From Cladopsammia gracilis (taxonomy: Eukaryota; Cnidaria; Anthozoa; Scleractinia; Dendrophylliidae), in contig JAJGOT010000049.1 of NCBI GenBank assembly GCA_022457155.1, positions 2,077,501 to 2,141,500 on the forward strand: DNA of 64,000 bases, read 5' to 3'. Of the stretch, positions 12,861 through 41,332 are shown one piece after another. The notes under the pieces were generated by a model that saw nothing but the letters and a program-made list of their open reading frames with translations, did not search any database and was not told the origin of the DNA. The translations under genes and the position numbers were made by a program. Every line of letters starts with the position of its first letter. Within the stretch, counting starts at the first letter, position 1.

Positions 12861-12889
12861 AATTTATTATACGTGGCGTATAATAAATT
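12861..12889. terminator. 13-bp perfect hairpin between minus-strand genes
   Basis: AATTTATTATACG, loop TGG, then CGTATAATAAATT. It lies just downstream of the minus-strand gene ending at 12905, so it could mark a transcript end or precede the next gene. It resembles the hairpins near 17006 and 20853. Confidence 0.5.
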
Positions 12890-12904
12890 TAAATTTGACT
12901 GTAT

Positions 12905-13207
12905 TTACGCTTCATCTGAAGATTCTTCATCTGAAGATTCTTCATCTGAAGATTCTTCATAATCAGAGTTCCACTCACCAGGTTCAACAGGTTTAATAGG
13001 TAGCTTGTGAGCGCAGCGGTAAATTTTAATGTAATCGACCAAGATCTTTTTCCGCATGTCTTTGTAGAGATTCGGGTTCTCACCATATTCCCGTAACATT
13101 ATCAATAGATCGTTAAATGTTAATGACTTAAGATGTTTGCTTGGAACCTGGAGTATCCGTTTTATCTTTTCTGGATATTCTGTTTGCGATTCACCACTTG
13201 TGTCCAT
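12905..13207 (-). CDS. Small protein with acidic repeat tail (100 aa)
   Basis: The N-terminal region (residues about 20-60) has a helix-turn-helix-like pattern (LTFNDLLIMLREYGENPNLY) loosely like a SAP motif. The C terminus is a threefold ESSDE repeat encoded by three 15-bp direct repeats at about 12909-12956. There is no counterpart at the same place in element 2. Function unknown; possibly a nucleic-acid or chromatin-binding accessory. Confidence 0.5.
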   Translation of the reverse strand: MDTSGESQTEYPEKIKRILQVPSKHLKSLTFNDLLIMLREYGENPNLYKDMRKKILVDYIKIYRCAHKLPIKPVEPGEWNSDYEESSDEESSDEESSDEA

Positions 13208-13257
13208 TGTCTTTTTTTATATAAGAAAATATTTCTTTAATTCCATTTTTTATATTT

Positions 13258-15066
13258 TTACATCGTCTCAAGCCACAGACTTACCAAACATTTATTGATG
13301 GTAGTTCCTTGTAAACTTTGTATTCTCACACGAAATTTATCACATTCTTCCAGAGCGATATCGTTAGTTAAGTGACAGACCTGTTTCTTACCACCCCCTC
13401 CTCTTCCTATTACATTATTTATCAACACGGCGATATGAGGGTATGTTTCGAGCGTATCGAGAATGTTAACGCAACATTTTACAATTTTACACTTAACCGG
13501 AACCATAACATATTCATCTCCTGAAAATAGAGTAAACATCTGGTTCACAGTTCTCTCGTAAAGACCGTGAATTACAAACGCACCACCGCTGGGACTTGGT
13601 GAATTGAGAATTGAGTAATTGTTCATATCCAGATCGGTCTGCATAACCATTTTCCTACTCTCCAAAATATAAGGAGAATCGTAAACACTGGCCGGTACAT
13701 CTGAGTGGTTTCCTTTTATTCCGTATATCGTTAGGTAAGCTTGAGCTTGCGAAGCTGATGTTGGCGAGCCACTACATTTTAAATCGACCCTAATATATTC
13801 CGGCGGTGTGATATCCCACTTATGCAGATTGATAATACTTCTACTGTAATCCGTAAATTTTTTTGTCGATTGTTTATTTATGTTTATAGAAGTCGATTGA
13901 ACATCGACGCTGACACCGCTCATTGTAGGCGGAATAAATTCGATACAAACGGTATATTCTCCCTTTGGTAATTTATACATATTAAAACCGATTCTTGATG
14001 CGTAGCTATTTAACGGATGCTTGTGTAATAAAAGACTGTAAACTTTTTTGTTTAACGTATGCGGTGACTCCACCAAATCGACTATACCGGTGACGGTTAT
14101 ATCATGCTCGGATGAGCTTTCGTCAACATTTTCCATTATGTACCTAAAATCATCTTTCAGCGCTGACGAGGTGGTGATGTGCGATTCATCGATATATTTT
14201 TTAAGCCTCTCTTCTATTTCTATCGTATGAACTACCACATCCCCTATCTTGAGATCAAGATTTTTATCAGCGCCGTCAACATAAGATTTATTACATGCGT
14301 CGGAACTATTTTGCGAAAATTCTAAATTTATAATCTTATGGTTTGACATATCGAAATCTTCACCGGACGGATTACTCAATTTACCCGAAATTATATGATC
14401 CACGTATCTTTTATTTGCTCCTTGGTCGGCGACCGTCGGGTCCTTTACATTATAAACCGTATTGTTTCCCATATCCAGCCCGCTTTCCATCGGAAACGTC
14501 TCTTTGCGGGATAAAAAAATATTCCTAACATCGTTGTAAGAGACAAGATTGTTATAATTTGCTCCTAAATCGTGATAAGTCTGTTGTTTCGATTGAACAA
14601 CATTGAAACGTTCTTTCAGATCGATATTTTTCACGACCTCATGTGTAGGTTCAGGAGCGTTGGGATGAAATTTTTTCAGAGTCACCATATTGACAGCGCA
14701 TAAATCGTTATCTTCGTCCGTATCCATATTGGTGATTAGTTTTCTGTTCATATCGATCTCTCCGGGAAGAATCAACCTGTTTCCTCGAAGATCTAAATCA
14801 CCGGTCATATGAGTGGACCCATCAACAAGAATAACATCTGTCGGATTTGGTTTTGTTGATAGCGCATTTTCCATCTGATGTTTTGTTATCGCATCATCGC
14901 TATCGACTCCTTCACCAACATTTACAAGACGTTTTTGTTGAATGTCGTAATTGTTATTGACATCTAATTTCAAACCGGCATTCGCTTGTACTTGTTGATT
15001 AAAATTTTTTATATATTCAGATATAGTAACATTACTGTATCTTCCGATATTATTGAAAATACCCAT
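13258..15066 (-). CDS. Fibre / tail-fibre-like attachment protein (602 aa)
   Basis: Long protein with repeated phage-tail-fibre-like beta units. Each has a stretch like GDLDLRGNRLI or LDMGNNTVYNV followed by a DAITKHQ, QGANKRYVD or CNKSYVD motif (three to four units in residues 35-270). A conserved globular region follows (about 290-470), then a C-terminal domain of about 115 residues. It aligns along its length with the element 2 protein at 41333-43123 except for that last domain. The start MGIFNN(I/V)GRY is shared. It stands immediately 3' of the packaging ATPase on the same strand. Probable trimeric receptor-binding fibre of the virion (inference from repeat type). Confidence 0.7.
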   Translation of the reverse strand: MGIFNNIGRYSNVTISEYIKNFNQQVQANAGLKLDVNNNYDIQQKRLVNVGEGVDSDDAITKHQMENALSTKPNPTDVILVDGSTHMTGDLDLRGNRLILPGEIDMNRKLITNMDTDEDNDLCAVNMVTLKKFHPNAPEPTHEVVKNIDLKERFNVVQSKQQTYHDLGANYNNLVSYNDVRNIFLSRKETFPMESGLDMGNNTVYNVKDPTVADQGANKRYVDHIISGKLSNPSGEDFDMSNHKIINLEFSQNSSDACNKSYVDGADKNLDLKIGDVVVHTIEIEERLKKYIDESHITTSSALKDDFRYIMENVDESSSEHDITVTGIVDLVESPHTLNKKVYSLLLHKHPLNSYASRIGFNMYKLPKGEYTVCIEFIPPTMSGVSVDVQSTSININKQSTKKFTDYSRSIINLHKWDITPPEYIRVDLKCSGSPTSASQAQAYLTIYGIKGNHSDVPASVYDSPYILESRKMVMQTDLDMNNYSILNSPSPSGGAFVIHGLYERTVNQMFTLFSGDEYVMVPVKCKIVKCCVNILDTLETYPHIAVLINNVIGRGGGGKKQVCHLTNDIALEECDKFRVRIQSLQGTTINKCLVSLWLETM

Positions 15067-15091
15067 ACTCTATTCTTATTTCATATAATTT

Positions 15092-15727
15092 TTAAAAAGT
15101 CTCATCAAAGTTCTTGGTAACACTTTTCTTTTCTTTGTCTAAAAATAAGAATTCATATGGACCGAGTTTATCAAAAAGAACCGGATCTATTAGATTTTCT
15201 TGCGCAATCAGATTTAAATGTTTTTTAGTCGTTGGTGGATACAAAATCATGTGGGAACAGTTCTGCCGTAGTTTCTGAGGAACATCGTAGTAAGACTGGG
15301 ATAGATAGATCGGGGAAATTTTATGATGTCGACCATCTGTATAATGATTGGCGATTTTGTTTTGAACTGCTTGGGGAGCGTTAATAAGATCATCAAAAAC
15401 CACCACTTTTCTATTATCGTTCGGATAGTCTGTTGTATCCATAATATCATCTTCTCCAAGAAGTTCTAAAATATCATATCCAACTCTTTGACTGGCGTTT
15501 TCCATTAATTTTTGCAAGTCTTGAATTTTATCCTGATGTTGATTTGGTGAGTATAGATAAATCTTATCATAATAAATGAGCGGTTTTCTAAGAATATGCA
15601 TTAAGGTGTTTGTTTTTCCACATCGAGTTTGACCAGTTATCAACATACGGAAATCTTCACTAAGAAAATCATTCAGCGAACGATTATTATCGTTACTTTT
15701 TATTACATCATAATTCGGTATTTTCAT
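15092..15727 (-). CDS. Genome-packaging ATPase (FtsK/HerA, A32-like), 211 aa
   Basis: The P-loop GQTRCGKTNT (about residues 32-41) and a Walker B stretch VVVFDDLIN (near 108-116) mark the A32-type packaging ATPase shared by Polintons, virophages, adenovirus-like and giant viruses. It pumps DNA into the capsid. Length fits the family. It is transcribed divergently from the gene at 15824, across an AT-rich 96-bp region with repeated motifs. The element 2 orthologue at 43125 aligns throughout. Intact. Confidence 0.92.
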   Translation of the reverse strand: MKIPNYDVIKSNDNNRSLNDFLSEDFRMLITGQTRCGKTNTLMHILRKPLIYYDKIYLYSPNQHQDKIQDLQKLMENASQRVGYDILELLGEDDIMDTTDYPNDNRKVVVFDDLINAPQAVQNKIANHYTDGRHHKISPIYLSQSYYDVPQKLRQNCSHMILYPPTTKKHLNLIAQENLIDPVLFDKLGPYEFLFLDKEKKSVTKNFDETF

Positions 15728-15823
15728 TTTATTTAATAAGGTAGATAAACTTAAAGTGTTTATTTTACAGATATTTAAAAATAACTTAAATGTTTATTTT
15801 ACAGATAAATTAAATAATAAATT
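15728..15823. promoter_or_regulatory. Divergent (bidirectional) promoter region
   Basis: The only spacer between the divergent ATPase and 403-aa genes. It contains a direct duplication, TGTTTATTTTACAGATA at about 15757-15773 and again at about 15791-15807, in an AT-rich setting. This is the likely late promoter for both arms of the morphogenesis block; element 2 has a palindrome at the same place. Confidence 0.5.
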
Positions 15824-17035
15824 ATGGATCTTGATAAGATCAAAAAATATGCAGATTCAGAATTTGAAGGGTTTAAAATTGCTAAAGCAGTTACCGAAGT
15901 AAAGAATGAGGTAAAAAATAAAGAACAAGTTCGCGATGTTGCGATGAGTGATTATTTTAAAACTCTGAGAGAACCGCTAATTGAACAGCAGAAAAAAACA
16001 GATGAAAAACAGGACAAAGTAATTCAACAATTAAAAGAAAATCAATTGGCTTTGACCAGCGGTTTCAAAGATTTGGTTGAAACTAACAAAGATATTTTAA
16101 CATTGAATAAAGAGCTACCATTTCCTGGCGGTGACCAACCACCTATACCTGCAATACCTGCGCCACCATCGGCTAAAATAATAACTGCTGAACCGAATAA
16201 GATGTTCACAGAAAACGAATTAGAATTTTTAAAAGAAACTTTTCATGAACCTAATGAGCTACTTAAAATGAATGAAGAACAGTTAATTGCAACTTATAAT
16301 GAAGCTAAAGATGAAAACAGAAGTGTTGGAATAAAGATAGGTGGTTTGAAAAGGAGAAAACCAAAGACAGAAGAAGAAAAACAAAAACTCGATTATGATC
16401 TGAAAATATATGAAAGAACAAGAGATATATTAGAGAGATATTTAACAACGATTAAGAATGTAAAAATTTTACCGCAATATACAAAACAAAAACAAGGTGA
16501 AGGGGTACGTAAGTACAAACAACCAAGACGAAACGCTTATAAAATTCAAAAAAATAATCAATATGGAGGACTATTGATCGACATGCCTAAATTAATGAAA
16601 GATCTGAAATTAAACGCTTATCGTGGTGGAAAATTAATTTATCAAGCCGATGCTGATAAATCTCTGATTAATTTACTAACGAAAAGATACAATCCTAAAA
16701 CAAAATATAGTATGAACGCTGTAAAAGTTTTTAATGATTTAAATATGTTGAGTAATTTACCTCCTCATAAATCATCTGGTAAATCGAAAATAGTCGGTTC
16801 AAGTATAGTTTATTATAATGATCCGAATCAATTGGCAGACAGAATGAAGATAATAATAGGTTCGATGGCCGCGGGTAATAATTCTCCTGTTTTGAGAAAT
16901 GATTTATCGCAAATAAATGATGAATTGTTAAGAATAGGAGCAATCGATAAAACAATTCATGAGAAATTATATAAAAAAATATTTAGCGTAATTAAAATTA
17001 AAAAGTTTTATTATACAGATCGTATAATAAAATGA
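15824..17035 (+). CDS. Conserved Polinton virion-associated protein (403 aa)
   Basis: First gene of the rightward capsid operon. Residues 1-90 are helical and charged, with an MSDYFKTLREPL motif and a Q/K-rich coiled-coil-like stretch. The C-terminal half carries a GEG(V/I)RKYKQPRRNA motif, GGLLID, and LIYQADADKSL, ending with IGSMAAGNNSPVLRNDLSQI. All are conserved in the element 2 protein at 43820. The middle (residues 110-210) is variable. It overlaps the penton gene by ATGA. I do not know a named domain; conservation and position argue for a capsid scaffold, tegument or internal protein. Confidence 0.7.
   Translation: MDLDKIKKYADSEFEGFKIAKAVTEVKNEVKNKEQVRDVAMSDYFKTLREPLIEQQKKTDEKQDKVIQQLKENQLALTSGFKDLVETNKDILTLNKELPFPGGDQPPIPAIPAPPSAKIITAEPNKMFTENELEFLKETFHEPNELLKMNEEQLIATYNEAKDENRSVGIKIGGLKRRKPKTEEEKQKLDYDLKIYERTRDILERYLTTIKNVKILPQYTKQKQGEGVRKYKQPRRNAYKIQKNNQYGGLLIDMPKLMKDLKLNAYRGGKLIYQADADKSLINLLTKRYNPKTKYSMNAVKVFNDLNMLSNLPPHKSSGKSKIVGSSIVYYNDPNQLADRMKIIIGSMAAGNNSPVLRNDLSQINDELLRIGAIDKTIHEKLYKKIFSVIKIKKFYYTDRIIK
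16988..17034 (+). promoter_or_regulatory. 47-bp leader repeat with hairpin before penton gene
   Basis: TTTTATTATAC (17006-17016), loop AGATC, GTATAATAAAA (17022-17032) forms an 11-bp stem that runs into the penton ATG at 17032. The same 47 bp recurs exactly at 20835-20881 before the zinc mini-gene. It is also read as the C-terminal codons of the 403-aa protein, which lack a counterpart in element 2. Confidence 0.65.
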
Positions 17036-17793
17036 ATGTTAACAGAACGCTAGTTTTCAAATCTATAGATGCAAGAAAACAAAATCCTAATAATAAACCG
17101 GGAAATTTTACTGTAAGGTTTACTCCTGAGTTGAGATTGGACGATAATAAAGAATGTTTTTTGGCATTGGATCATCTTAGTATGACTGCGAGTTGGCATA
17201 ACATTCGTCCCGAATATGATAACGACAAACTAAAAATATCAAAAGATAAAGGTAAAACATATGAAACGATTACTTTTCCATCAGGGGTTTATGATTACGA
17301 AGATATAAATGATTTTATCCACAAAACGATTGGAAAAATACCCAACACGGAGGAATATGGAATTAGCGTATTGTTTGATCTTACAACTTACAAGGTATTT
17401 ATTCAATTATCTACCGATTTCCGCATCGATTTTAGTTCGAGTGGAAATTTTAATATTTTACTCGGATTCGAATCGAAAGTTTTAACGAGCAGCGGTTATG
17501 GGAAAAATTTCCCTAATATCAGTAACAGCATCGATAATCTTTACGTAAAATGTAGTTTGTTGAGCGATTCGATCGTTTCAGGAAAGCGAAGCAATACCTT
17601 ATTCACGTTCTCAACAAATACAAAAACAAGGTCTTTACCTTTTGAAATCTACCCAAGAGTGAATTATTTATGGCAAAAGATAAATAGAAAAGATATATCT
17701 GAAGTAACATTTTACTTAACCGATGATGAAGATAGAATTGTTGATCTGAACGATATCGATATTTCCATAACTGTAGTGTTAAAAGAAGTATAA
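17032..17793 (+). CDS. Penton / minor capsid protein (single jelly roll), 253 aa
   Basis: Matches the Polinton minor capsid (penton) family. Motifs include LVFKSIDARKQNP at the N terminus, LALDHLSMTASWHNI (about residues 44-58), TFPSGVYDYEDINDFIHK, SLLSDSIVSGKRSN (about 182-195) and STNTKTRSLPFEI. Length and beta-rich character fit a single jelly roll that forms the fivefold vertices. The element 2 orthologue (44959) aligns end to end. It lies just before the small amphipathic protein and the major capsid protein. Confidence 0.85.
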   Translation: MNVNRTLVFKSIDARKQNPNNKPGNFTVRFTPELRLDDNKECFLALDHLSMTASWHNIRPEYDNDKLKISKDKGKTYETITFPSGVYDYEDINDFIHKTIGKIPNTEEYGISVLFDLTTYKVFIQLSTDFRIDFSSSGNFNILLGFESKVLTSSGYGKNFPNISNSIDNLYVKCSLLSDSIVSGKRSNTLFTFSTNTKTRSLPFEIYPRVNYLWQKINRKDISEVTFYLTDDEDRIVDLNDIDISITVVLKEV

Positions 17794-17826
17794 TTTTATT
17801 TATAATTTATAAAATTAGGCTTACGT

Positions 17827-18234
17827 ATGGAAGAACAAAGAAGAATAAGAAATTTTGATACAGGAGAAATTTCTTATATCAACTCTGCAGATCACTCTGT
17901 AGAGTATGGTTCTGGTTTCTTTGACACACTTGCTGCAATCGGTTCCAAATTAACAGGAAAAACAGCGAGTAAATTGGCTAGTAAAGCAGCAGAAAAACTT
18001 ATTGAAAAAGGTGCTGAAAAGGTTGGAGAAAAAACTGGTGAAGTTCTTGGTGAAAAAATTTATGACAAGTTTTCATCCAAAGGTAAAAAAGAACCTATGG
18101 CAGCAGCACCGCAAATTTCAGGCGAAACAAAAGGAGTTGAAATTATTAAATTTTTAAACGAAGAAAACTCTAAAAAAGAGAAGAAAGAAGACAAATATCA
18201 ATATATTAGAAATATCGTAAATGATCTGATTTAA
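17827..18234 (+). CDS. Small amphipathic virion protein (135 aa)
   Basis: A short N-terminal tail with (D)TGEI is followed by a glycine motif (YGSGFF here, YGGGFS in element 2). An Ala/Lys amphipathic region (KLTGKTASKLASKAAEKL) and GEKIYDKF come next, then a Lys/Glu-rich C terminus. It resembles processed adenoviral-type internal proteins that disrupt membranes or bind DNA; the glycine motif is a plausible protease site. The gene sits between the penton and major capsid genes in both elements. Function inferred. Confidence 0.6.
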   Translation: MEEQRRIRNFDTGEISYINSADHSVEYGSGFFDTLAAIGSKLTGKTASKLASKAAEKLIEKGAEKVGEKTGEVLGEKIYDKFSSKGKKEPMAAAPQISGETKGVEIIKFLNEENSKKEKKEDKYQYIRNIVNDLI

Positions 18235-18247
18235 TTTTAAAAATAAT

Positions 18248-18274
18248 TTCTTATTATAATTCATAATAAGAATG
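18248..18274 (+). promoter_or_regulatory. Hairpin abutting the major capsid start codon
   Basis: TTCTTATTAT (18248-18257), loop, ATAATAAGAA (18263-18272) is a perfect 10-bp stem whose last base is the A of the MCP ATG. It has the same layout as the hairpins before the penton and zinc genes but a different sequence. Confidence 0.5.
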
Positions 18275-19570
18275 AGTTTCAGAAATCCAGAATTGGTCAA
18301 ACGATATGAATACGTGTCCTACGATTTGGCAACACCGCTAATCGATAATGTCGCAAATAATAATAGACAGGTTAAGGATAATTATCGATTCACAGTTGAT
18401 AACTCTTCAGAAGCAAATCCGATCGATTGGTATAACGCATATTTGGAAGTAGATTTCAAACTTGTTACACTTGCTGATAGTACAACCGGTATAACAGCAG
18501 GACCAAATAACGGTAATCAAGATTGTACTACAACTAATGGCCATACATTTATAAAACAGATACAGGTTGTGTGCAACGGGATAACAGTTTATAATAACTC
18601 AAGAGCTAATGAAACATCGAACGTACTTTCCCTCTTAAAATATACAAAAAGTTATGCAGATACGATCGGTAAAGATCAATTTTTATATTTAGATTCATCC
18701 ACGGGAACAACAGAAGCACGACCGGCTCAAGCGTTATATAACGAAGGTTTTGCTAGAAGAAAAATTTTGACAGATGCTGCAGCTGTTAATAAAATATCGA
18801 TTCCGCTAAATCTATACAGCTATTTTGCAGCTTTCAAAAATAATCTTCACCCAAATATCAAGACAAATCTTCTTATAGAACTTGAAAGCGATAACAATAT
18901 AATTTTCAGAAAAGGAGCTGCTCCAGATAGTAAAGTGATTTTAACAAAATTAAGATTGTGGTGTCCAAAAATTATTTTCAACGGCTTAGGAATGAAACAG
19001 TATCTTGAAGATTATTTGAAACCCAAAAAATGGACTTATTTGAGAGAACATACCGAAATATTACAAACATCATCTGTAAATAGCTCCTTTCGAATAAGTA
19101 CAGGAATTAGGAGACCGAGGCATGTTTTCATCTGGGTTGTCCCCGAAGCAAGTTATAGTAATCAGGAGCAAAATATATTTACTTTCAAAACATTTAGAAT
19201 TGGAGCAAATAATCGATATTTTTCTAGAGCACACTTGCAAATAAATAATAGCATCCAATATCCTCAATTAGAAATGACATCAGATGAGGAGTCAAGACTT
19301 TACAGAGCTTTGTTATCCTACAGTTCCGCTTACAACGACTTTTTAAGCGGAACAATAATTGACCGAGCAAATTTCAGAAATCTTTTTGGAATTCTATACT
19401 TTAATCTTAGAAACCAAGAAGAAGATGTAAAAGATGGTGTAGTTGCACTTACTTTTAATTATGAATTAAACGGAGCAAATCCAACAAATTATAGATTAAA
19501 TGCTTTAGTTTTACATGAAAAAGAGATAGAGTTATACACGTCATCCGGAAAAATATTAATAAAAGCGTAA
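18272..19570 (+). CDS. Major capsid protein (double jelly roll), 432 aa
   Basis: Homologue of the Polinton major capsid protein, which builds pseudo-hexameric capsomers. It has RNPELVKRYEYVSYDLATP at the N terminus and SSEANPIDWYNAYLEVDFKL (about residues 48-67). A repeated N-terminal-jelly-roll region with GFARRKIL, NLYSYFAAFKNNLHPNIKTN and LRLWCPKIIFNG follows, then a second jelly roll containing RISTGIRRPRHVFIWVVP and a C-terminal NALVLHE. It aligns throughout with element 2 (46131-47435). Intact, with no frameshift. Confidence 0.92.
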   Translation: MSFRNPELVKRYEYVSYDLATPLIDNVANNNRQVKDNYRFTVDNSSEANPIDWYNAYLEVDFKLVTLADSTTGITAGPNNGNQDCTTTNGHTFIKQIQVVCNGITVYNNSRANETSNVLSLLKYTKSYADTIGKDQFLYLDSSTGTTEARPAQALYNEGFARRKILTDAAAVNKISIPLNLYSYFAAFKNNLHPNIKTNLLIELESDNNIIFRKGAAPDSKVILTKLRLWCPKIIFNGLGMKQYLEDYLKPKKWTYLREHTEILQTSSVNSSFRISTGIRRPRHVFIWVVPEASYSNQEQNIFTFKTFRIGANNRYFSRAHLQINNSIQYPQLEMTSDEESRLYRALLSYSSAYNDFLSGTIIDRANFRNLFGILYFNLRNQEEDVKDGVVALTFNYELNGANPTNYRLNALVLHEKEIELYTSSGKILIKA

Positions 19571-19603
19571 ATCTAATTAAAATTATATTTTGTAAAAATA
19601 AAA

Positions 19604-20407
19604 ATGGCTACAGCGTATTTTGCATATGGAGTAAATTTGTCTCAAGGACAGCTACAAAGGTTGAAAAAAGCATATGACGATAATTCAGAAATTACGATAA
19701 GGTTAAGTAAAAATAATTTGAAAGGGTCGCATGAGTTGATGTTGACAAAAACCCAGATTAATAAGATTAATAAAGCGGTAAAAAACGGTACCGGTACCGA
19801 TATCAAAATATCTAAAACACAGATTCGTAAAGCGATCATAAAAGGTGGAAGTTTGTGGACCTCTTTGTTGTCACTCGGTGCAAAGTTGTTACCTTTTGCT
19901 ACAAAAGCGGCTACAAAGGTAGTACCTTTAGCTACAAAAGCAGCTACAAAAGTACTACCTCATTTAGCTACAGGAGCGCTAGGCGCTTTGGGAAGTCTCG
20001 GTATCGATAAGATTTTTGGTAGCGGTATTACGATACCGTTTGATTTTCTTCCTCAACTTGCACAATTAAAAGGATTAACACAAGGGCAAGCGGTAGCGGT
20101 GCAAAAAGGTATGCAAACCGGTAGCGGTATAACATTTAAACCTACACAAAGGCAGATAAATGGAGGATTTTTAGGAACACTTGCTGCAATCGGAATTCCT
20201 ATGGCTATCGAATTAGCTTCAAAACTTTTTGGAAAAGGATTACAGATATCGCCAAGTCCACCAACGGACGTTGGTGGTAGAGGATTACAGGTACCAAAAC
20301 TGCCGAGAGGTAGAGGATTACAGATTTCTCCAAAATATCCATACCATCCTCTACCTTTTTATGGATCGTGGGGTGAAAAAAACCCAAATTTAGGGATGTA
20401 CCGCTAA
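19604..20407 (+). CDS. pVI-like internal capsid protein, 0-frame product (267 aa)
   Basis: The N-terminal domain (1-80) is Lys-rich with a repeated LSKNNLKG / TKTQI pattern. It is followed by GGSLWTSLLSLGAKLLPFAT, Ala/Thr amphipathic repeats, a second glycine site (INGGFLGTLAAIG at about 188-200) and a Gly/Pro-rich tail. IKGG-S and INGG-F fit the adenain cleavage rule ((M/I/L)xGG-x), as would be expected of a pVI-like protein cleaved during maturation. Seven A residues near its 3' end form an A_AAA_AAC slippery site that leads into the protease frame. Its own TAA (20405-20407) follows 22 nt after the heptamer. Confidence 0.65.
   Translation: MATAYFAYGVNLSQGQLQRLKKAYDDNSEITIRLSKNNLKGSHELMLTKTQINKINKAVKNGTGTDIKISKTQIRKAIIKGGSLWTSLLSLGAKLLPFATKAATKVVPLATKAATKVLPHLATGALGALGSLGIDKIFGSGITIPFDFLPQLAQLKGLTQGQAVAVQKGMQTGSGITFKPTQRQINGGFLGTLAAIGIPMAIELASKLFGKGLQISPSPPTDVGGRGLQVPKLPRGRGLQISPKYPYHPLPFYGSWGEKNPNLGMYR
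20377..20407 (+). promoter_or_regulatory. Candidate -1 ribosomal frameshift site (pVI-like to protease)
   Basis: The heptamer A_AAA_AAC at 20377-20383 is in the correct 0-frame register (GAA AAA AAC). Six nt further on a modest stem can form: TTAGGG (20390-20395) with CC-g-CTAA (20401-20407, one bulge). An in-frame stop in the -1 frame (TGA, 20374-20376) sits just upstream, so the -1 frame opens exactly at the heptamer. Confidence 0.7.
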
Positions 20408-20838
20408 GTAATTTTGACCTCCTTGAATGGATAAAATATTTAAAAATACCTGATTTCAAAGGTATTTTTTCGAGAGATCAAACGGTAAGTCAACCGACAG
20501 GCAAAACAGGATGTTGTATAATTAATCTTGATGATAAGATAGGGAACGGTACACACTGGGTAGCAACATTTGTAAAAAATAAAAATCTCATATATTATTT
20601 TGATTCGTTTTGTTTACCGCCACCACAAGATTTCATTGATTATGCTAATAAATCAGGTATGGAATACCAATACAATATCGGTTACCCGTTTCAAGCTATA
20701 AAATCAGTAAGATGCGGTTATTATTGTTTATATTTTCTTGATAATATTTACAAAAAATCATTTTATGATTGCTTAAGTAGATTCAAAATCGATAATCAAA
20801 ACTACAATGAAAAGTTTATTAAAAAATATTTCATGTAA
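20377..20838 (+). CDS. Adenain-like cysteine protease, -1 frame, no ATG (PRO)
   Basis: Adenovirus-type maturation protease. In this frame I read a FDLLEW start region, a GNGTHWVA catalytic-His block, YYFDSF with the Asp, and SVRCGYYCLYF with the nucleophile Cys; the element 2 protein has the same blocks. There is no ATG before the conserved region; the first in-frame ATG lies after the catalytic His. The frame opens at the A7 slippery run within the preceding gene, so it is most simply made as a -1 frameshift fusion to the pVI-like protein. Non-AUG initiation is the alternative. Role: processing capsid and core precursors. It ends at TAA 20836-20838. Confidence 0.85.
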   Translation, partial: KKPKFRDVPLSNFDLLEWIKYLKIPDFKGIFSRDQTVSQPTGKTGCCIINLDDKIGNGTHWVATFVKNKNLIYYFDSFCLPPPQDFIDYANKSGMEYQYNIGYPFQAIKSVRCGYYCLYFLDNIYKKSFYDCLSRFKIDNQNYNEKFIKKYFM

Positions 20839-20881
20839 TTAAAATTAAAAAGTTTTATTATACAGATCGTATAATAAAATG
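20835..20881 (+). promoter_or_regulatory. 47-bp leader repeat with hairpin before zinc mini-gene
   Basis: Exact second copy of 16988-17034. The 11-bp stem at 20853-20863 / 20869-20879 again ends at the ATG (20879). It separates the protease stop from the zinc-PLA2-integrase cluster and may be a promoter or a post-transcriptional start signal. Confidence 0.65.
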
Positions 20882-21046
20882 GAGTCGCTAACACAGAACA
20901 CGTTCTGTGTTAAGGAAAAAATAAAAACCGGTTGTACTGAACCGTCCGGTTATGAGATAGCCTCAAACGGCAGGCCTTATTTTTGGTGCACTTGCGCTAA
21001 TTGCGGAATCAAGAAAACCCGTTTCGTTAAGAGTTCGGAAAACTAG
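20879..21046 (+). CDS. Zinc-binding mini-protein (55 aa), 0-frame upstream of PLA2
   Basis: Starts MESL and reads FCVKEK...TGCTEPSGY, then NGRPYFWCTCANCGIKKTR. Four to six Cys (C-x8-C and C-x-C-x2-C) suggest one small zinc site. Element 2 has a clear homologue (48789-48941) with the same EPSGY, NGR and CGIKKTRFVK. It ends with a TAG directly after a GGAAAAC heptamer, and the PLA2 frame (-1) opens at 21031 across that point. It may exist alone and as the N terminus of a PLA2 fusion. Confidence 0.7.
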   Translation: MESLTQNTFCVKEKIKTGCTEPSGYEIASNGRPYFWCTCANCGIKKTRFVKSSEN

Positions 21047-21681
21047 TTGGGCCCCCACAAGGTGGGGGCTTTGGTGAGATGGCTATGGAAGGATTAACGA
21101 TGCATGCGTTACCTTGGTTAGGAAAGAAAGCTGTTGAAATGGGTCGTTATGGAGCAAGTGAGCTGTTGAGAAATAAAAATATGCAAACCAAGGCGTTGGA
21201 TTTCGCTCTTGACAAAGCAAAACCGTTTCTTGAAAATACTGCCTCTCAAATGCTGAACGAATTGTCAACTAAGATCAGGCCTGACAAAAAATATAAAACG
21301 GATCGAGCTGATTTAGATGGTGGTAAATTAGATGTTCATTCATTAATAGGAAAGCTGCCAAGACCAAAGAAAGGATTCACTCCTGGGAAATATAAGTATA
21401 TGGGGCCTTATAATCCCCTGGATAAACAGTTAAAATACGATGATGAAACGGGAGAAATTCAAGAATGGTATGAGCAACCGTATAACAAAGTGGATGAAAT
21501 ATCAGCTCGACATGACGTTTGTTATGATCGCGTTAAAACAGGCAAAACCAACAAGGGAGATTGTGACCGGCAGATGGTTTCTGAACTTGATCAGATTCCG
21601 TACGGAGAGATGCCAAAATGGGGACAAGCGGCGAGATTTATTATCAACACGAAGCAAAAACTTGGGTTGGGAAACGGATAA
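21031..21681 (+). CDS. Parvovirus-type phospholipase A2 virion protein
   Basis: Open in the -1 frame of the zinc gene from 21031; the first ATG is at 21079 (about 200 aa). The N-terminal part has HALPWLGKK(A/T)VEMGRYGASELL and a helical segment. The C-terminal domain is a secreted/parvovirus-VP1-like PLA2: the Ca-binding loop YMGPYNPLD (about residue 110 from the ATG) and the catalytic His-Asp pair in DEISARHDVCYD, then DRQMV. Such domains break endosomal membranes during entry. It ends LGLGNG at 21681, with a canonical GGGAAAC heptamer just upstream that opens into the integrase. May be made as a zinc-PLA2 fusion or from its own ATG. Confidence 0.85.
   Translation, partial: EFGKLVGPPQGGGFGEMAMEGLTMHALPWLGKKAVEMGRYGASELLRNKNMQTKALDFALDKAKPFLENTASQMLNELSTKIRPDKKYKTDRADLDGGKLDVHSLIGKLPRPKKGFTPGKYKYMGPYNPLDKQLKYDDETGEIQEWYEQPYNKVDEISARHDVCYDRVKTGKTNKGDCDRQMVSELDQIPYGEMPKWGQAARFIINTKQKLGLGNG
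21037..21069 (+). promoter_or_regulatory. Candidate -1 ribosomal frameshift site (zinc to PLA2)
   Basis: GGAAAAC (21037-21043) sits in 0-frame register as G_GAA_AAC next to the TAG. A 7-nt spacer follows, then a perfect 8-bp stem GCCCCCAC (21051-21058) / GTGGGGGC (21062-21069) with an AAG loop. Element 2 has the same arrangement with a fully canonical heptamer. The heptamer here is one base from canonical (G-U at one P-site position), so efficiency is uncertain. Confidence 0.7.
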
Positions 21682-22643
21682 GGCCGCCGAGTAAAAACGT
21701 AGAGACGTGGCAAGAAAAGCTAGCAGACGAACTGCATAAACCTATAAGGCGAAAGTTTACTCGGCGGCGTGTTATTGTAAACGGAATCGATGAGATATGG
21801 TGTTCTGACCTTGTCGAGATGCAGAAATTAAGTAAGTGGAATAAGGGATATCGATATCTTCTCATGGTGTTAGATGTTTTCAGTAAATACGGTTGGATTG
21901 TACCGTTGAAGAATAAAAAGGGAGAGAGTGTCGCAGAAGCGTTCAATTCGTTATTCAAGAAAGGAAGAAAACCGAAAATGCTGTGGGTGGATAAGGGAAA
22001 AGAGTATTACAACAAGAATATGAAAGAACTGTTGGATAAAAATAAGATAGTGATGTATTCGACAGAGAATGAAGAAAAATCTAGTGTTTGTGAAAGATGG
22101 AACCGTACGATAAAAGAGAAGATGTATAAACAGTTTACCGTTCAAAACAATACAAAATATCTTGATGCGTTACCGAGGATATTGAAAGAATACAATAATT
22201 CAAAACACCGAAGCATCGGTATGACACCTGTGGAAGCGTCGAAGAAAAAGAACGAAAGTGCTGTTTATTTAAATTTGTACGGTAAGATGAAACGGATATA
22301 TACTAAACCGAAATTTAAAGTTGGTGATAAAGTTCGAATATCGAAATATAAACGTCCTGTTTTCGATAAAGGTTACACACCGAATTGGACTGAAGAGATT
22401 TTTACTGTCGATAAGATTCGATACACTAACCCTATAACTTATAAACTGAAAGATGAGTTGGGTGAGGAGATAACAGGTTCTTTTTATAAGGAAGAGCTGC
22501 AGAAGGCTAAACAGACCATCTTTCGTATTGAGAAAGTGATTCGACGAGATGCTCGAAAAGGTAAAGCGTTAGTGAAGTGGAGCGGGTATAGCGATAAATT
22601 CAACTCTTGGGTAGATTTGAAAGAACTGAAAGATCTGCGGTGA
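21618..22643 (+). CDS. Polinton integrase (RVE DDE with chromodomain)
   Basis: Retroviral-type integrase in the -1 frame of PLA2, overlapping it by 64 nt. The catalytic core has IWCSDLVEMQ (first Asp), MLWVDKGKEYY (second Asp) and a Glu in the STENEEKSSVCERWNRT block. KFKVGDKVRISKYK is an SH3-like region. The C terminus (about residues 300-341) is a chromodomain: RIEKVIRRD, LVKWSGYSDKFNSWV. It inserts the element, generating 6-bp duplications. The internal ATG at 21618 could start it independently. Homology to element 2 begins only after the slippery site (QEKLADELHKPIRR), supporting a fused origin. Confidence 0.92.
   Translation: MGTSGEIYYQHEAKTWVGKRIRPPSKNVETWQEKLADELHKPIRRKFTRRRVIVNGIDEIWCSDLVEMQKLSKWNKGYRYLLMVLDVFSKYGWIVPLKNKKGESVAEAFNSLFKKGRKPKMLWVDKGKEYYNKNMKELLDKNKIVMYSTENEEKSSVCERWNRTIKEKMYKQFTVQNNTKYLDALPRILKEYNNSKHRSIGMTPVEASKKKNESAVYLNLYGKMKRIYTKPKFKVGDKVRISKYKRPVFDKGYTPNWTEEIFTVDKIRYTNPITYKLKDELGEEITGSFYKEELQKAKQTIFRIEKVIRRDARKGKALVKWSGYSDKFNSWVDLKELKDLR
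21669..21768 (+). promoter_or_regulatory. Candidate -1 ribosomal frameshift site (PLA2 to integrase)
   Basis: The canonical heptamer G_GGA_AAC at 21669-21675 is in 0-frame register, 3 nt before the PLA2 stop TAA (21679-21681). After a 7-nt spacer a perfect 13-bp stem forms between GCCGCCGAGTAAA (21683-21695) and TTTACTCGGCGGC (21756-21768), enclosing 60 nt. Confidence 0.85.
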
Positions 22644-22654
22644 AGATCTCTTCT

Positions 22655-22682
22655 TTTCATTTCACGTTCGTGAAATGAAAAT
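22655..22682 (+). terminator. 13-bp hairpin after integrase
   Basis: TTTTCATTTCACG, loop TT, CGTGAAATGAAAA, 12 bp after the integrase stop and ahead of the polymerase gene. It is the likely 3' end of the capsid-integrase transcript. Confidence 0.55.
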
Positions 22683-22729
22683 TTAAAATGGTATTAAAAA
22701 ATAAAATATATTGATAATAATACTTACGT

Positions 22730-24265
22730 ATGGAGTCAAAAACTGTTCAACAGCTTAGGGCAATTGCACGTGAAAACGGATTGAAAGGTCATTCACGTTA
22801 TAGGAGGAAAGCGGACCTGATCAAATTCATTGAAAGTAGTAGAGCACCTGAACCTCTCCCACCACGCGGTATCGTAAATTTTATAGATGAACCTTCACCA
22901 CGCGGTATCGTTAATTTTTTAGATAAACCCTCTCCACCCCGAAGAAGAAGAAAAAGACAACCTTCACCATCTCCGCCCCGAAGAAGGAAAAATAGACAGC
23001 CCTCTCCACAACCCCTAGACCATCATCAATCAGAGATACCGTTAGAATCTGAAGATTCTAACCGTAAACGAAATAAGAAGAGACAAAAGACCCGTAAAAC
23101 AAAGAAGGAGAAGAAATTGGAAGAGGTCGAAAATAGATCTGAAAGATCTGAAGATACTCTTCAATCGACAAATAATAAGAAGAGACAAAAGAAACTAAAG
23201 AGGGAGGCTGCCCGTCTAACAAAGAAAATCAACCGTGCAAAAAACAAACGTGGCACACTGTTCTTACAAGAAAAACTAAACCAAGTTTTGAAAAAGATCG
23301 ATAGCCGAAGATTACCCTATGAGATAATCAAGATAGGTGAGAATACAAGTAACAAGTTCAAATCGTTTTTCGACATATTCAAAGTTAAAATAGTAAACCC
23401 TCGTGAAATATTCGATATTGATAAATTACTGTTAGAAATAGGGCTCAGAGTAATAAAAGAGAGAGGGTTACAAAACGGTGACAAGATTCGATGGATACTT
23501 AGTCATACGAGTTGGCATAAACCAGTTAGTACAAAACGAATCACGATCACAGATCACCTTGGGACGGATCTCGTCGAAGAGATAGCTAGATTCATTGAAT
23601 ACAAGGATGTACCGCTCCCCGAGGTCAAAATAGAGATTCAGTCGGTAAAGGTTCCCCGGGGAATGGGTCGATTACGTGTAACAAAATTAAATGCCAGCGA
23701 TAAAAAGAGTATAATCACAATCAAAAATAATGACTCAATCTGTCTTGCGCGAGCAATAGTGACGGCTCGTGCAAACATAAATAAATGTAGATGGACAAAA
23801 ACTCAGCTACAGGATGGGTTCAATAGGTCGAGAAAACTGCAGAAAGACGAAGCTATCAAACTTCATAAAGAAGCTGGAGTCGAAATTAACGAGGAAACCG
23901 GTTCAACCCTCGAAGATGTAAAGAGATTCGCGGAACATCTTAAGATTCAGATAAACATTGCAGACGGTGATCGATTCAATGATCTGATTTTCACTACTGA
24001 AAATGAGCACGATGGACAGATGATATACCTTTACAAAAACAAAAACCACTTCGACGTTATCACAAGTATGCCAGCGTTCTTGAGTAAAGATTATTATTGT
24101 CACACCTGCAAAAAGCCGTACACAAAACGCGATTGTCATAGATGTCCCGCAAAATGTACAGCATGCTTCAAGTACTTTCCACACGGAGTGAAAAAGTGCT
24201 CTTATCCACCAATTCCATGCGATAAGTGTAATAGGTCTTTCTTCGGAGTAGATTGTTTTATGTAG
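22730..24265 (+). CDS. Protein-primed DNA polymerase B, N-terminal part up to UAG
   Basis: The first 511 codons of the element 1 polymerase gene. Residues 1-40 are a SAP-like motif (VQQLRAIARENGLKGHSRYR then KADLIKFIE). A Pro/Arg/Lys-rich linker follows with duplicated PRGIVNF and RRRK(R/N)RQPSP(S/Q)P segments, and then a conserved pre-exonuclease region ending in Cys pairs (CHTCKKPY, CPAKCTACFKYF, CDKCNRSFFG). A UAG at 24263-24265 stops it. The frame stays open beyond the UAG into the polymerase core, so this is one gene with a single nonsense codon or a readthrough site. Confidence 0.75.
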   Translation: MESKTVQQLRAIARENGLKGHSRYRRKADLIKFIESSRAPEPLPPRGIVNFIDEPSPRGIVNFLDKPSPPRRRRKRQPSPSPPRRRKNRQPSPQPLDHHQSEIPLESEDSNRKRNKKRQKTRKTKKEKKLEEVENRSERSEDTLQSTNNKKRQKKLKREAARLTKKINRAKNKRGTLFLQEKLNQVLKKIDSRRLPYEIIKIGENTSNKFKSFFDIFKVKIVNPREIFDIDKLLLEIGLRVIKERGLQNGDKIRWILSHTSWHKPVSTKRITITDHLGTDLVEEIARFIEYKDVPLPEVKIEIQSVKVPRGMGRLRVTKLNASDKKSIITIKNNDSICLARAIVTARANINKCRWTKTQLQDGFNRSRKLQKDEAIKLHKEAGVEINEETGSTLEDVKRFAEHLKIQINIADGDRFNDLIFTTENEHDGQMIYLYKNKNHFDVITSMPAFLSKDYYCHTCKKPYTKRDCHRCPAKCTACFKYFPHGVKKCSYPPIPCDKCNRSFFGVDCFM

Positions 24266-26983
24266 CATCTACGTGACAGATCCAAATGGGGTAGTAAAGA
24301 CACTGTGTGTAAAAAAGTAGGTAAATGTTTGAAATGTGAGCGTACAATTACATCTTCTAAAAATGATGGCCTAAAGAATCACATCTGCGGATATTCAAAG
24401 TGTAGTAATTGTGGGAAGTACTGTGATATGAATGAACATCTTTGTTTCATGTCTCAAACGAATTGTAAGGGTGGAAAATGTCAAGGTTACGGATGTAGTC
24501 CTGGAAGTTTGTGTTATCCTTGTCAGACAAGAACCGATAAATACATGTTCTATGATTTTGAAGCAACTCAGGAGACCGGTGTTCATGAGGTCAATTTAGT
24601 CGTCTGTCACGATTTTTATGGAAATAAAAATACATTTGAAACGCTCGACGAATTTTGTAAATTTATTTTTAACAAGGATGATCATGTCGGGTATACCTTC
24701 ATAGCTCACAATGCAAAAAGTTACGATGCTCAGTTTATTCGAAATTGGTGTATAGAGAACAGAGTGAAACCCGATATTATTTACAACGGAACAAAGATTA
24801 TGTCTATGAAGGCTGAGGGTGTTAGATTTATTGATTCTATAAACTTTATCGCTGCGGCGTTATCATCGTTCCCAAAGACATTTGGTTTGAAAGAGTTGAA
24901 AAAAGGGTATTTTCCACATTATTTCAACACAAAGTGTAACCAAAACTATGTAGGGCCGATTCCTGATAAGAAACACTATGGTTATGATGAGATGAAACCT
25001 TCAGCGAGAAAGGAATTCTTAAAATGGTACCAACAACGTATTGATGAAAACTATGTGTTTGACATGAAGAAGGAGCTGAGAGATTACTGTGATAGTGATG
25101 TAGACATCCTCAGAAGAGGTATGTTGATTTTTCGAGAACAGTATATCGAGTTAGGTAACATCGACCCTCTTCAATATATAACCATCGCTTCTGTATGCAT
25201 GACGACCATGTACAGAAGTAACCACATGCGTTGTGAAAAGATCGCTGTTGTAAAGGAAATTACACGTGGAGAGAACTACAGTAAAAGTAGCATCGCATGG
25301 TTAGATTGGATTTCTCAGAGAGATGGTGTTAAAATAAAACATGCTCTGAACGGTGGTGAAGAGACTTTACCAGATATCGGAAAGGTTGACGGGTTTTGTG
25401 GGAATACGGTCTACGAATTTCAAGGATGTTTTTGGCACGGTTGTGAGAAGTGTTATACATGCGACACAATCAACACAAAAAATCAGATGGATATGTTAAC
25501 TCTAAGAAAGAGGACGGTAGCGAAAAACGATAAAATTAGAGCTGCCGGGTATGAACTGGTTGAGGTTTACGAATGTGAACTGAAAAAGGAGAAAGATTTT
25601 GGTAAATTTCTAAAAACGTGGAATCGGGAATTTGTAGGGCCTCTTAATCCTAGGGACGCATTTTTTGGTGGACGAACAAATGTAACAAAACCGACCTACA
25701 CATTCAAAAAAGGTGAGAAAGGTAGATATGTCGACTTTGTTAGTTTATATTCAACGGTACAATTCTTCAAGGATTATCCGGTAGGTCATCCTACAAAGAT
25801 ATCTGTTCCTCCTCAAGAGTACGATGAGAATTGGTTTGGTTTTGTGAAATGTAAAGTTTTACCTCCAAGAGGTCTTTATCATCCTGTGTTACCGGTAAAA
25901 ATAAAATGCGATAAGGCTGAAAAGCTGCTATTTCCGCTCTGTAGAGTGTGCGCTGAAAATAAGATTCAGGAATGTACACATACAGATAATGAACGATCAT
26001 TCATCGGAACATGGTGCACGAATGAATTGAATGTGGCGATTTGTAAAGGGTACAAGGTACTAAACATATACGAGGTGTGGCATTTCGAGGCTAAATCCGC
26101 TAACCTTTTCAAGACTTATGTAAGAAAATTCATGAAAATCAAGATGGAATCGAGTGAACTGAAGACCGGTCAAGGTTGTACATATAAGAGTGTTGATGAG
26201 TACCGGTCAGTTGTTGAATCAAAGTTAGGAATCGAGCTTGATGAGATTGAGTACAATCCTGGTAGGAGGGCAATCTCAAAGTTGTCTCTGTGTAGTTTAT
26301 GGGGAAAATTTGGTCAGCGTAATAACATGAATCAGACTGTGTACGTCACTGAACCAAAAGAATTTTACAAGATCTTGTTAGATGAAAGCATAGACGATCT
26401 GAACATTCAATTCTTAAACGAAGATATGGTTGAAATGACTTACAACTTGAAAGACCAGTTCGTTGACAATAGTAATAACACAAACATATTTATTGCTGCC
26501 TTCACAACCAGCCACGCTAGAATGATGCTGTATGAAGTGTTGGATAAACTCGGTGATCAGGTTCTCGGTTTTGACACCGACAGCTGTTGGTATATCGAAC
26601 GTGAAGGGGGACAGCGAATCGAAACAGGTGACAGCCTCGGTGATCTAACCGATGAGTTAAACGGACATTATATTACGAATTGGTGCGGTTCTGGTCCAAA
26701 ATCATACAGTTATAGTACAAGTGATGGGAAGATGGAATGTAAGGTCAAAGGTTTCACTCTGAATCACAAAAATAGTCAAAAAATAAATCAAAAAACGATG
26801 AAGCAGATCATCGAAGGTCAAAAGGAACGAATAACAACCGTAAACGAACGAGCGATAACTCGAGATCCTTTAACAAAACAGGTTGTAAATAAATACCAGA
26901 AAAAAGACTTTCGGATGTGTTACGATAAACGGTGTATGGTGAAGACTGAATCAGGTATCGAGACGTTTCCATATGGATATTAA
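24266..26983 (+). CDS. Protein-primed DNA polymerase B, exonuclease and polymerase core
   Basis: In frame with the upstream part, directly after the UAG. An upstream cysteine cluster is followed by exonuclease motifs: DFEA (Exo I), FIAHNAKSYDAQFI (Exo II), YCDSDVDIL (Exo III). Polymerase motif A appears as DFVSLYSTVQ at about 25732 (the usual P of SLYP is S), motif B as KLSLCSLWGKFGQ at about 26278 (the usual N is C), and motif C as FDTDSCW at about 26570. FWHGC lies between. Its stop at 26981-26983 lies 4 bp from the right TIR. The two motif changes plus the UAG suggest it may be compromised. This polymerase belongs to a different lineage from that of element 2. Role: protein-primed replication of linear DNA. 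Confidence 0.85.
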   Translation, partial: HLRDRSKWGSKDTVCKKVGKCLKCERTITSSKNDGLKNHICGYSKCSNCGKYCDMNEHLCFMSQTNCKGGKCQGYGCSPGSLCYPCQTRTDKYMFYDFEATQETGVHEVNLVVCHDFYGNKNTFETLDEFCKFIFNKDDHVGYTFIAHNAKSYDAQFIRNWCIENRVKPDIIYNGTKIMSMKAEGVRFIDSINFIAAALSSFPKTFGLKELKKGYFPHYFNTKCNQNYVGPIPDKKHYGYDEMKPSARKEFLKWYQQRIDENYVFDMKKELRDYCDSDVDILRRGMLIFREQYIELGNIDPLQYITIASVCMTTMYRSNHMRCEKIAVVKEITRGENYSKSSIAWLDWISQRDGVKIKHALNGGEETLPDIGKVDGFCGNTVYEFQGCFWHGCEKCYTCDTINTKNQMDMLTLRKRTVAKNDKIRAAGYELVEVYECELKKEKDFGKFLKTWNREFVGPLNPRDAFFGGRTNVTKPTYTFKKGEKGRYVDFVSLYSTVQFFKDYPVGHPTKISVPPQEYDENWFGFVKCKVLPPRGLYHPVLPVKIKCDKAEKLLFPLCRVCAENKIQECTHTDNERSFIGTWCTNELNVAICKGYKVLNIYEVWHFEAKSANLFKTYVRKFMKIKMESSELKTGQGCTYKSVDEYRSVVESKLGIELDEIEYNPGRRAISKLSLCSLWGKFGQRNNMNQTVYVTEPKEFYKILLDESIDDLNIQFLNEDMVEMTYNLKDQFVDNSNNTNIFIAAFTTSHARMMLYEVLDKLGDQVLGFDTDSCWYIEREGGQRIETGDSLGDLTDELNGHYITNWCGSGPKSYSYSTSDGKMECKVKGFTLNHKNSQKINQKTMKQIIEGQKERITTVNERAITRDPLTKQVVNKYQKKDFRMCYDKRCMVKTESGIETFPYGY

Positions 26984-26986
26984 TGA

Positions 26987-27194
26987 GTATCGATTAAAAT
27001 ATATACCGTCACTAAATTATAATGATGGGTTTCATAAATTAAAAAAATTAACGACAAAACACACTAGATCTGGAAAAGTACCTTAGAGTGAATAATTATA
27101 GGCGATTCGTCTATAATTATACGAGTTACATCAAATTAACGACAAAAACACACTGAAAATGGAAAAGTGCCGTATAGTGCCTTACATAACTACT
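26987..27194 (-). repeat. Element 1 right terminal inverted repeat
   Basis: Reverse complement of 9332-9539, ending CATAACTACT; the GCCTAT duplication follows at 27195-27200. Confidence 0.95.
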
Positions 27195-41328: not shown

Positions 41329-41332
41329 TTTT

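Follow-up and report, generated by a model that had tools for sequence, protein, structure and literature searches.

How is an integrase (INT) translated when its frame opens inside the preceding gene, one nucleotide back, and holds no AUG between a candidate slip site and its presumed first catalytic residue? The question is raised twice in a stretch of 64,000 nucleotides (nt) from the scleractinian Cladopsammia gracilis (assembly GCA_022457155.1, contig JAJGOT010000049.1, positions 2,077,501 to 2,141,500; the window), by two Polinton/adintovirus-like elements termed E1 and E2. In each of them, open reading frames (ORFs) for a short zinc protein (zinc), a phospholipase A2 (PLA2) and INT overlap in succession, downstream of a pVI-like ORF and a protease (PRO) that overlap in the same manner. 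It is very probable, as judged from sequence, that zinc-PLA2-INT is translated as a single unit, from which zinc, zinc-PLA2 and zinc-PLA2-INT proteins would arise by two successive -1 programmed frameshifts.

A preliminary description of the window had proposed three -1 junctions per element (pVI/PRO, zinc/PLA2 and PLA2/INT), and this was borne out in both E1 and E2 (Table 1). Codon phases run from pVI 2 to PRO 1 and from zinc 2 through PLA2 1 to INT 0 in E1, and from pVI 2 to PRO 1 and zinc 0 through PLA2 2 to INT 1 in E2, giving a -1 step at 6/6 junctions. All six have a heptamer in the upstream register, five of them of the canonical form X_XXY_YYZ, and at the zinc/PLA2 junction the zinc stop codon lies directly 3' of the heptamer. 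A heptamer alone is weak evidence, because one in register lies within the last 12 codons of 11 of the 93 stop-to-stop ORFs with 100 codons or more. By coordinate arithmetic, the predicted products of the unit are 55, 267 and 588 residues in E1 and 50, 281 and 597 in E2 (zinc, zinc-PLA2 and zinc-PLA2-INT). Between E1 and E2, synonymous sites are saturated (proportion of synonymous differences, pS, 0.71-0.87) while the ratio of nonsynonymous to synonymous proportions (pN/pS) is low, 0.16-0.36 for hexon, pVI, PRO, PLA2 and INT; the same arrangement has therefore been kept by two long-separated elements. Their zinc proteins share 66% identity.

Behind all four zinc/PLA2 and PLA2/INT heptamers a helix can form. 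The window has 938 heptamers on its two strands; a helix with a free energy (dG) of -9 kcal/mol or below begins 4-9 nt downstream of 19 of them, including these four, with the caveat that the thresholds were chosen after the sites had first been seen. When the downstream 130 nt were shuffled, an equally good helix arose 1, 0, 27 and 31 times per 2000 at the four sites. Stimulatory RNA structures are placed about 5-9 nt downstream of the slip site in PMC7618472, and structures at that distance are present at zinc/PLA2 and PLA2/INT in both elements. The PLA2/INT stems of E1 and E2 are unrelated in sequence.

Copies of both elements in the same genome (877.8 Mb) were then compared. Searching with the E1 cluster gave at least 45 matches, with scores for the best 40 candidates; the E1 family was taken as 36 loci including E1 itself, leaving out 8 fragment matches on four contigs. 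The E2 family comprises 40 loci from 44 matches, 94-100% identical. Within the E1 family the PLA2/INT heptamer is GGGAAAC in 36/36 copies, with a local -1 phase in 35/36 and a helix at or below -9 in 36/36. The zinc/PLA2 heptamer is GGAAAAC in 26 copies, GGGAAAC in nine and AGAAAAC in one, and local -1 phase and helix are each found in 35/36. In the E2 family GGGAAAC at zinc/PLA2 and AAAAAAC at PLA2/INT occur with -1 phase in 40/40 copies each, as do helices at or below -9 (40/40 at either site). INT remains open for 319-326 codons in 40/40 E2-family copies and for more than 300 codons in 30/36 E1-family copies, being cut short in the other 6/36. Within the families pN/pS is 0.18-0.24 (E1) and 0.10-0.28 (E2), and by this measure the zinc, PLA2, INT and PRO frames are shown to be under purifying selection.

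Could the junctions simply be decay, that is, frameshift mutations in dead endogenous copies? Damage does occur: besides the shortened INT frames, PRO is cut short in 2/33 E1-family copies, the E1 DNA polymerase (PolB) frame is broken by a TAG at about 24263, and two more distant loci, described below, carry a stop in the INT frame (C838) or in zinc (C1196). The same -1 step at each site in 75/76 family copies, in 17/20 and 18/20 of the more distant loci, together with pN/pS of 0.10-0.36, leaves this explanation a practically negligible probability.

In the 35 E1-family copies other than E1, the PLA2/INT heptamer and the 3' arm of its stem are free of any mismatch to E1, a degree of conservation matched by 1.3% of 13-nt windows. 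In the zinc hairpin, the pair 21055-21065 is CG in 30 copies of the E1 family, GC in three, UG in two and AC in one, and the pair 21057-21063 is AU in 31, CG in four and UU in one. Copies L010, L021 and L034 keep the zinc/PLA2 stem although, as we read them, they encode PASGAG in place of the peptide PPQGGG, a difference that suggests maintenance at the RNA level. Another copy, L019, has a long run of G inserted into its zinc/PLA2 hairpin and no longer shows the -1 phase.

A protein search of the same genome with PLA2 gave 150 scored matches among 2588 candidates, 63-78% identical to the query. From these, 20 further loci were picked by eye for diversity and short pieces around both junctions were compared; C833, C1196, C977 and C1224 are near E1 by sequence and C1302 is near E2. 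At zinc/PLA2, 17/20 have the -1 step with an in-register heptamer (GGGAAAC, GGAAAAC and once TTTAAAC). The misses are C296 (a deletion), C354 (an A-run) and C320 (a heptamer one base short), and a few of the 17 have a zinc ORF that is interrupted further upstream. A helix at or below -9 is present in 16 of the 17, C833 having a mismatch. At PLA2/INT the figure is 18/20 (AAAAAAC or GGGAAAC), including C838 by reading of its sequence, with a stop later in its INT frame; the misses are C784, with an extra A, and C260, in which INT was not found within the piece read. Random frame relationships among relatives, which the preliminary description had named as evidence against its proposal, were thus found neither in the families (35/36 and 40/40 copies) nor in these loci.

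Covariation of the zinc/PLA2 hairpin was assessed in 20 of the 22 sequences (the 20 loci, E1 and E2), anchored on the heptamer and the outer GCC/GGC; C296, without a hairpin end, and C320, without a heptamer-plus-stop, were omitted. Nine distinct hairpins of 19-20 nt were found, with spacers of 6-7 nt. Their inner pairs are formed in 35 of 36 cases, and when the 3' arms were re-dealt the mean was 25.5 and the maximum 34, with 0/5000 rounds reaching 35. The PLA2/INT stems also co-vary: AGATTTTGAGT/GCTCAAAATCT in E2 and AGGTTTCGAGT/GCTCGAAACCT in C1130 are two double changes apart, and a second such comparison is TGAGATTTCGAA/TTCGAAATCTCG with TGAGATTTCGAG/CTCGAAATCTCG. Many copies and more distant loci accordingly retain the serial -1 signals of zinc-PLA2-INT proposed at the outset, together with the covarying hairpin.

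Two side observations were made on these loci. At the zinc/PLA2 junction of L104 (C424) TTTAAAC replaces GGGAAAC and the hairpin is paired differently, and in L089 (C784) the one extra A joins PLA2 and INT in one frame with the stem still there. The 150 scored matches, most without an internal stop, amount to a large Polinton load.

Introns that bridge the frame breaks, so that spliced mRNAs would encode one-frame proteins, are very unlikely. Polintons do lie in a eukaryotic genome and one-frame PLA2-INT and zinc-PLA2-INT relatives are known, but splicing needs neither an in-register heptamer nor a hairpin 6-7 nt behind it, locus after locus.

Start codons bear on a further alternative, in which PRO, PLA2 and INT would each be made from their own mRNA or AUG (through promoters of their own, leaky scanning or reinitiation), the -1 overlaps being only a result of tight packing. 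In E1 and E2 the INT frame has no AUG from the slip site to the DLVEM codons. The first catalytic Asp of INT, which we assign from this motif, precedes the first post-slip AUG. E1 PRO likewise has no AUG after the slip before residue 94, and E2 PRO has none after the slip. Sequences leading into the ORF starts listed are 75-95% A+T, against 40-50% at internal AUGs of PRO, PLA2 and INT; the INT-frame AUGs upstream of the slip, at 21618 and 49483, have an A+T fraction of 0.45-0.50 and lack an AT-rich leader. Possible independent starts exist elsewhere: E1 PLA2 has an ATG at 21079, 14 codons behind the slip, from which it could be initiated on its own; an ATG lies in the E2 PRO frame at 48238, 18 nt before its A-run and kept in 36/36 copies read there; and in E2 the PRO stop and the zinc AUG are 2 nt apart. 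Separate starts would leave the heptamers and the covarying hairpin unexplained, and as an account of the whole arrangement they are quite unlikely. A 44-nt AT-rich leader before the E1 zinc AUG (20835..20878, + strand) is identical to 16988-17031, before an AUG at 17032. This duplicated leader or promoter in E1 would be consistent with a transcription unit headed by zinc.

Traces of the two slip sites were also sought in public protein homologues, at least 6206 for INT and at least 2774 for PLA2, nearly all from ENA records; 120 listed of each were examined. Among the PLA2 tails, 116 could be anchored (four without an anchor were dropped), and 111 of these have KN or LN near the end, the residues that AAAAAAC or TTTAAAC would encode. 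For unique tails the count is 62/66, compared with a mean of 40.1 and a maximum of 51 in 1000 shuffles, a weak null because the tails are short and rich in K and N. Of the 120 PLA2 tails, 63 can overlap an INT N-terminus in DNA by 10 codons or more in the -1 relation, and none can in the +1 relation. The motif [GKR]K[LRW], which the zinc slip site would leave when read in -1, is present in 33 of the 37 homologues with recognised sequence upstream of PLA2, the other 83/120 having been dropped for want of an upstream part or a visible core motif. The KN content of fused and split proteins was considered as a contrast and set aside, since N is lost anyway when that heptamer is read in -1.

In some relatives the domains are found in one protein: P0131, P0167 and P0198 are zinc-PLA2, P0018 and P0039 have all three domains, and the PLA2 Pfam domain also occurs on 33/120 listed INT homologues. 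The single frame of these proteins is as given by the database entries; C784 shows one in DNA. The graded Gag-Pol-like scheme of the preliminary description is thus not universal, since some relatives encode PLA2 and INT, or zinc, PLA2 and INT, in one frame.

The same description had named pVI/PRO among the three junctions of its frameshift cluster. The signals at zinc/PLA2 and PLA2/INT are well supported; for pVI/PRO the case is clear in the E1 family only. Copies ending short of this junction are left out of the counts (3/36 in the E1 family, 4/40 in the E2 family). In the E1 family the heptamer is AAAAAAC in 28/33 copies and A7 in 5/33, the -1 phase is present in 31/33, a TGA shuts the PRO frame right before the heptamer in 31/33, and PRO is open over at least 149 codons in 31/33. 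A ribosomal slip is likely here, since PRO has no AUG, its frame is stopped upstream and the heptamer is kept, yet there is no nearby structure: no helix was found at a spacer of 4-9 nt behind either pVI/PRO site (from 20386 and 48259). Near the E2 site a 12-bp helix begins about 10 nt downstream. The -1 phase is found in 34/36 E2-family copies.

Slippage of the RNA polymerase on the A-runs (A10 in E2, A7 in E1) would also link pVI and PRO and has an outside chance. The runs are homopolymers whose length varies among copies, and in L025 and L029 one more A places pVI and PRO in one frame, alongside -1 copies in the same genome. Polymerase slippage hardly fits GGGAAAC, GGAAAAC and TTTAAAC, and the predominance of AAAAAAC over A7 in the E1 family also argues against it. 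For the E2 protease, its own AUG or polymerase slippage is as likely as a ribosomal slip, and beyond the E1 family the pVI/PRO slip is probably not general.

Just behind E1 20377 two tandem heptamers, CCCAAAT and AAATTTA, were not counted because they are changed in many copies (mismatch fraction 0.058 for AAATTTA compared with 0.022 for AAAAAAC). Among the pVI homologues (P0241-P0360), 116 of the 120 listed end in a tail G-L-L-L-G-x-N-S-P-F..IP..GAIL, absent from E1. This conserved tail is possibly protease-cofactor-like, as we take that of adenovirus pVI to be.

A number of results weigh against programmed frameshifting at these junctions, or limit it. In the E1 family, the conservation of the zinc/PLA2 heptamer is equalled by 58% of 7-nt windows and that of the pVI/PRO heptamer by 40%, while 54% of 13-nt windows equal the 5' arm of the PLA2/INT stem; conservation in this family singles out the PLA2/INT heptamer and 3' arm only. 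Family copies are related, so that their counts are not independent events, and the DNA evidence is drawn from one host genome. A perfect PLA2/INT helix was computed for 17 further loci, and in seven of them (C354, C1290, C320, C424, C1107, C296 and C261) it falls short of -9 kcal/mol. When all overlaps of the 120 PLA2 tails with INT are considered, -1 is better in 88, +1 in 23 and nine are tied, the +1 fits all being of 7 codons or fewer; by eye, the N-terminal INT extensions of P0093 and P0111 (Stylophora) resemble the +1 reading of PLA2. The one-frame PLA2-INT relatives show that equal amounts of the two are tolerated somewhere. As for pVI/PRO, besides the points given above, an A-rich trace (KKK or KKKN) is seen in only 5/120 listed pVI homologues.

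The serial frameshift model predicts the following course. Ribosomes would initiate at zinc, and a minority would slip at the first site to give zinc-PLA2. A minority of these would slip again and produce zinc-PLA2-INT; if each shift is inefficient, as we suppose, integrase would therefore be the scarcest product. The fusion would place integrase beside the virion phospholipase, presumably for packaging, and in the E1 family the protease would be joined to pVI through an additional -1 site. The wider proposal, of a retrovirus-style two-step cascade (zinc to PLA2 to INT, with a pVI-protease fusion in part of the lineage) that operates lineage-wide, grades the virion enzymes and carries integrase into the particle on the entry phospholipase, is given even chances.

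Both elements look complete and begin with the letters AGTAG. The hallmarks of Polintons and adintoviruses were found in them: PolB (PF03175; E 1.1e-42 and 1.6e-24), an rve integrase (PF00665) with a chromodomain (PF00385), an A32/FtsK-like ATPase (Pox_A32; 9e-12 and 4e-10), an adenain-like protease, terminal inverted repeats and 6-bp target site duplications. The Pfam scan also assigned the zinc protein to DUF5679 and PLA2 to the parvovirus VP1 type (PF08398; E 1.9e-7 and 2.4e-8) in both elements. PLA2 contains an HD pair that we take to be catalytic. The proteases match adenovirus C5 at 0.0047 (E1) and 0.03 (E2), under the Pfam cut-off, and a profile of both found a PDB chain of the cysteine protease S273R at 1.5e-6. 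The E1 ORF labelled hexon-like capsid gave neither a Pfam nor a PDB sequence match, and its AlphaFold model has a predicted local distance difference test score (pLDDT) of 33, too low to be of use; the label follows position and the scheme of the preliminary description. No reverse transcriptase was detected among the 30 ORFs scanned with Pfam, the frameshifted unit consisting of DUF5679, PLA2, rve and chromodomain.

INT is 73% identical, with 91% coverage, to that of a Stylophora coral adintovirus (P0093); the named coral relatives among the INT matches are Stylophora and Oculina. Viral contigs were searched with three alignments of two sequences each and one of 33 INT sequences, and genome contigs were searched as well, without a relative being confirmed; no phage records with INT were found, and Rfam gave no match at gathering scores. 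The in-frame TAG at 24263-24265 breaks E1 PolB into 511 and 892 codons; E2 PolB is a single ORF of 1351 codons. A dense 8/12-nt tandem repeat (27464-27958) adjoins the right end of E1 on the outside, and beyond E1 and E2, in the flanking DNA, a -1 ORF transition on the - strand (58386) has an AAAAAAC heptamer and a 7-bp helix.

Table 1. Positions in the window of E1, E2 and the features of their frameshift junctions.
Feature	Coordinates	Strand	Remarks
Element E1	9332..27194		Polinton/adintovirus-like; 213-nt terminal inverted repeats, identical; 6-bp target site duplication GCCTAT
E1 pVI-like ORF	19604..20407	+	name from the preliminary description; without Pfam match
E1 pVI/PRO heptamer A_AAA_AAC, pVI register	20377..20383	+	TGA closes PRO frame directly upstream
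E1 PRO open frame, adenain/C5-like protease	20377..20838	+	
E1 zinc ORF (DUF5679)	20879..21046	+	head of zinc-PLA2-INT unit
E1 PLA2 open frame (PF08398)	21031..21681	+	-1 relative to zinc
E1 zinc/PLA2 slip site G_GAA_AAC	21037..21043	+	non-canonical, near-canonical
E1 zinc/PLA2 hairpin	21051..21069	+	8-bp core, 7 nt after heptamer
E1 INT open frame, rve + chromodomain	21591..22643	+	-1 relative to PLA2
E1 PLA2/INT slip site G_GGA_AAC	21669..21675	+	
E1 PLA2/INT stem, 5' arm	21683..21695	+	13-bp stem, 7 nt after heptamer
E1 PLA2/INT stem, 3' arm	21756..21768	+	13-bp stem closes 60-nt loop
Element E2	34635..53463		Polinton/adintovirus-like; terminal inverted repeats; 6-bp target site duplication TAAAGT
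E2 pVI-like ORF	47465..48337	+	
E2 PRO open frame	48112..48786	+	
E2 pVI/PRO A10 run	48256..48265	+	in-register AAAAAAA at 48256/48259
E2 zinc ORF (DUF5679)	48789..48941	+	
E2 zinc/PLA2 slip site G_GGA_AAC	48932..48938	+	
E2 PLA2 frame from slip site	48932..49633	+	open frame begins 48770
E2 zinc/PLA2 hairpin	48946..48964	+	
E2 PLA2/INT slip site A_AAA_AAC	49612..49618	+	
E2 INT frame from slip site, rve + chromodomain	49612..50580	+	open frame begins 49483
E2 PLA2/INT hairpin AGATTTTGAGT/GCTCAAAATCT	49625..49658	+	11-bp stem, 6 nt after heptamer

Retroviruses of the mouse mammary tumour virus and human T-cell leukaemia virus type 1 (HTLV-1) type read gag-pro-pol with two -1 frameshifts, at heptamers such as AAAAAAC and TTTAAAC. 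The arrangement found here is alike, at the level of sequence, in its two serial -1 shifts, its AAAAAAC and TTTAAAC heptamers, the structure a few nt downstream and the position of integrase as the last product. It differs in that Polintons are double-stranded DNA (dsDNA) viruses with PolB and no reverse transcriptase in the unit, that the head of the unit is a DUF5679 zinc protein of 50-60 residues plus PLA2 rather than Gag plus protease, and that the protease sits in a separate unit (pVI/PRO). The zinc-PLA2-INT unit is thus predicted to work like a gag-pro-pol of this type without being a member of it. HIV-1 gag-pol, with the slip site U6A, differs in belonging to a retrovirus and in having a single shift. 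According to PMC7618472 it has a simple and stable stem-loop that starts within a few nt of the slip site on the 3' side, like the zinc/PLA2 hairpin; the HTLV-1 gag/pro and pro/pol frameshift signals are named in the same paper.

In gene content the elements resemble adintoviruses and Polintons (Eupolintoviridae), which share PolB, the rve and chromodomain INT, the A32-like ATPase, the adenain-like protease, the inverted repeats and the 6-bp duplications. With parvovirus VP1 they share the PF08398 domain, in a separate frame and with a predicted fusion to a zinc protein and integrase rather than to a capsid protein. The passages of a 2024 preprint (PMC11071296) predict -1 slips near the 3' ends of adintovirus Penton genes and a potential Hexon-Adenain fusion; these are predictions only and concern genes other than zinc-PLA2-INT. 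No published report of serial zinc-PLA2-INT frameshifting was found in a search that took in few subscription papers and whose scope did not extend to the founding adintovirus paper, and it is not described in the passages of PMC8097293, PMC5803895, PMC12567637, PMC8363768 and PMC12721341 consulted. New here would be retroviral-type serial frameshifting in an integrase-bearing dsDNA virus lineage.

If the reading is true, a eukaryotic dsDNA virus group would use a serial -1 cascade with integrase as its final product. This would explain the missing usable start codon of the Polinton integrase and of some protease genes, and would suggest how Polinton viruses bring integrase into the particle. 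Enzyme packaging in Polintons and retroviruses would then be linked, by convergence or by inheritance shared with the integrase. Moreover, the natural two-frame and one-frame copies that occur in one genome make the value of the frameshift directly comparable.

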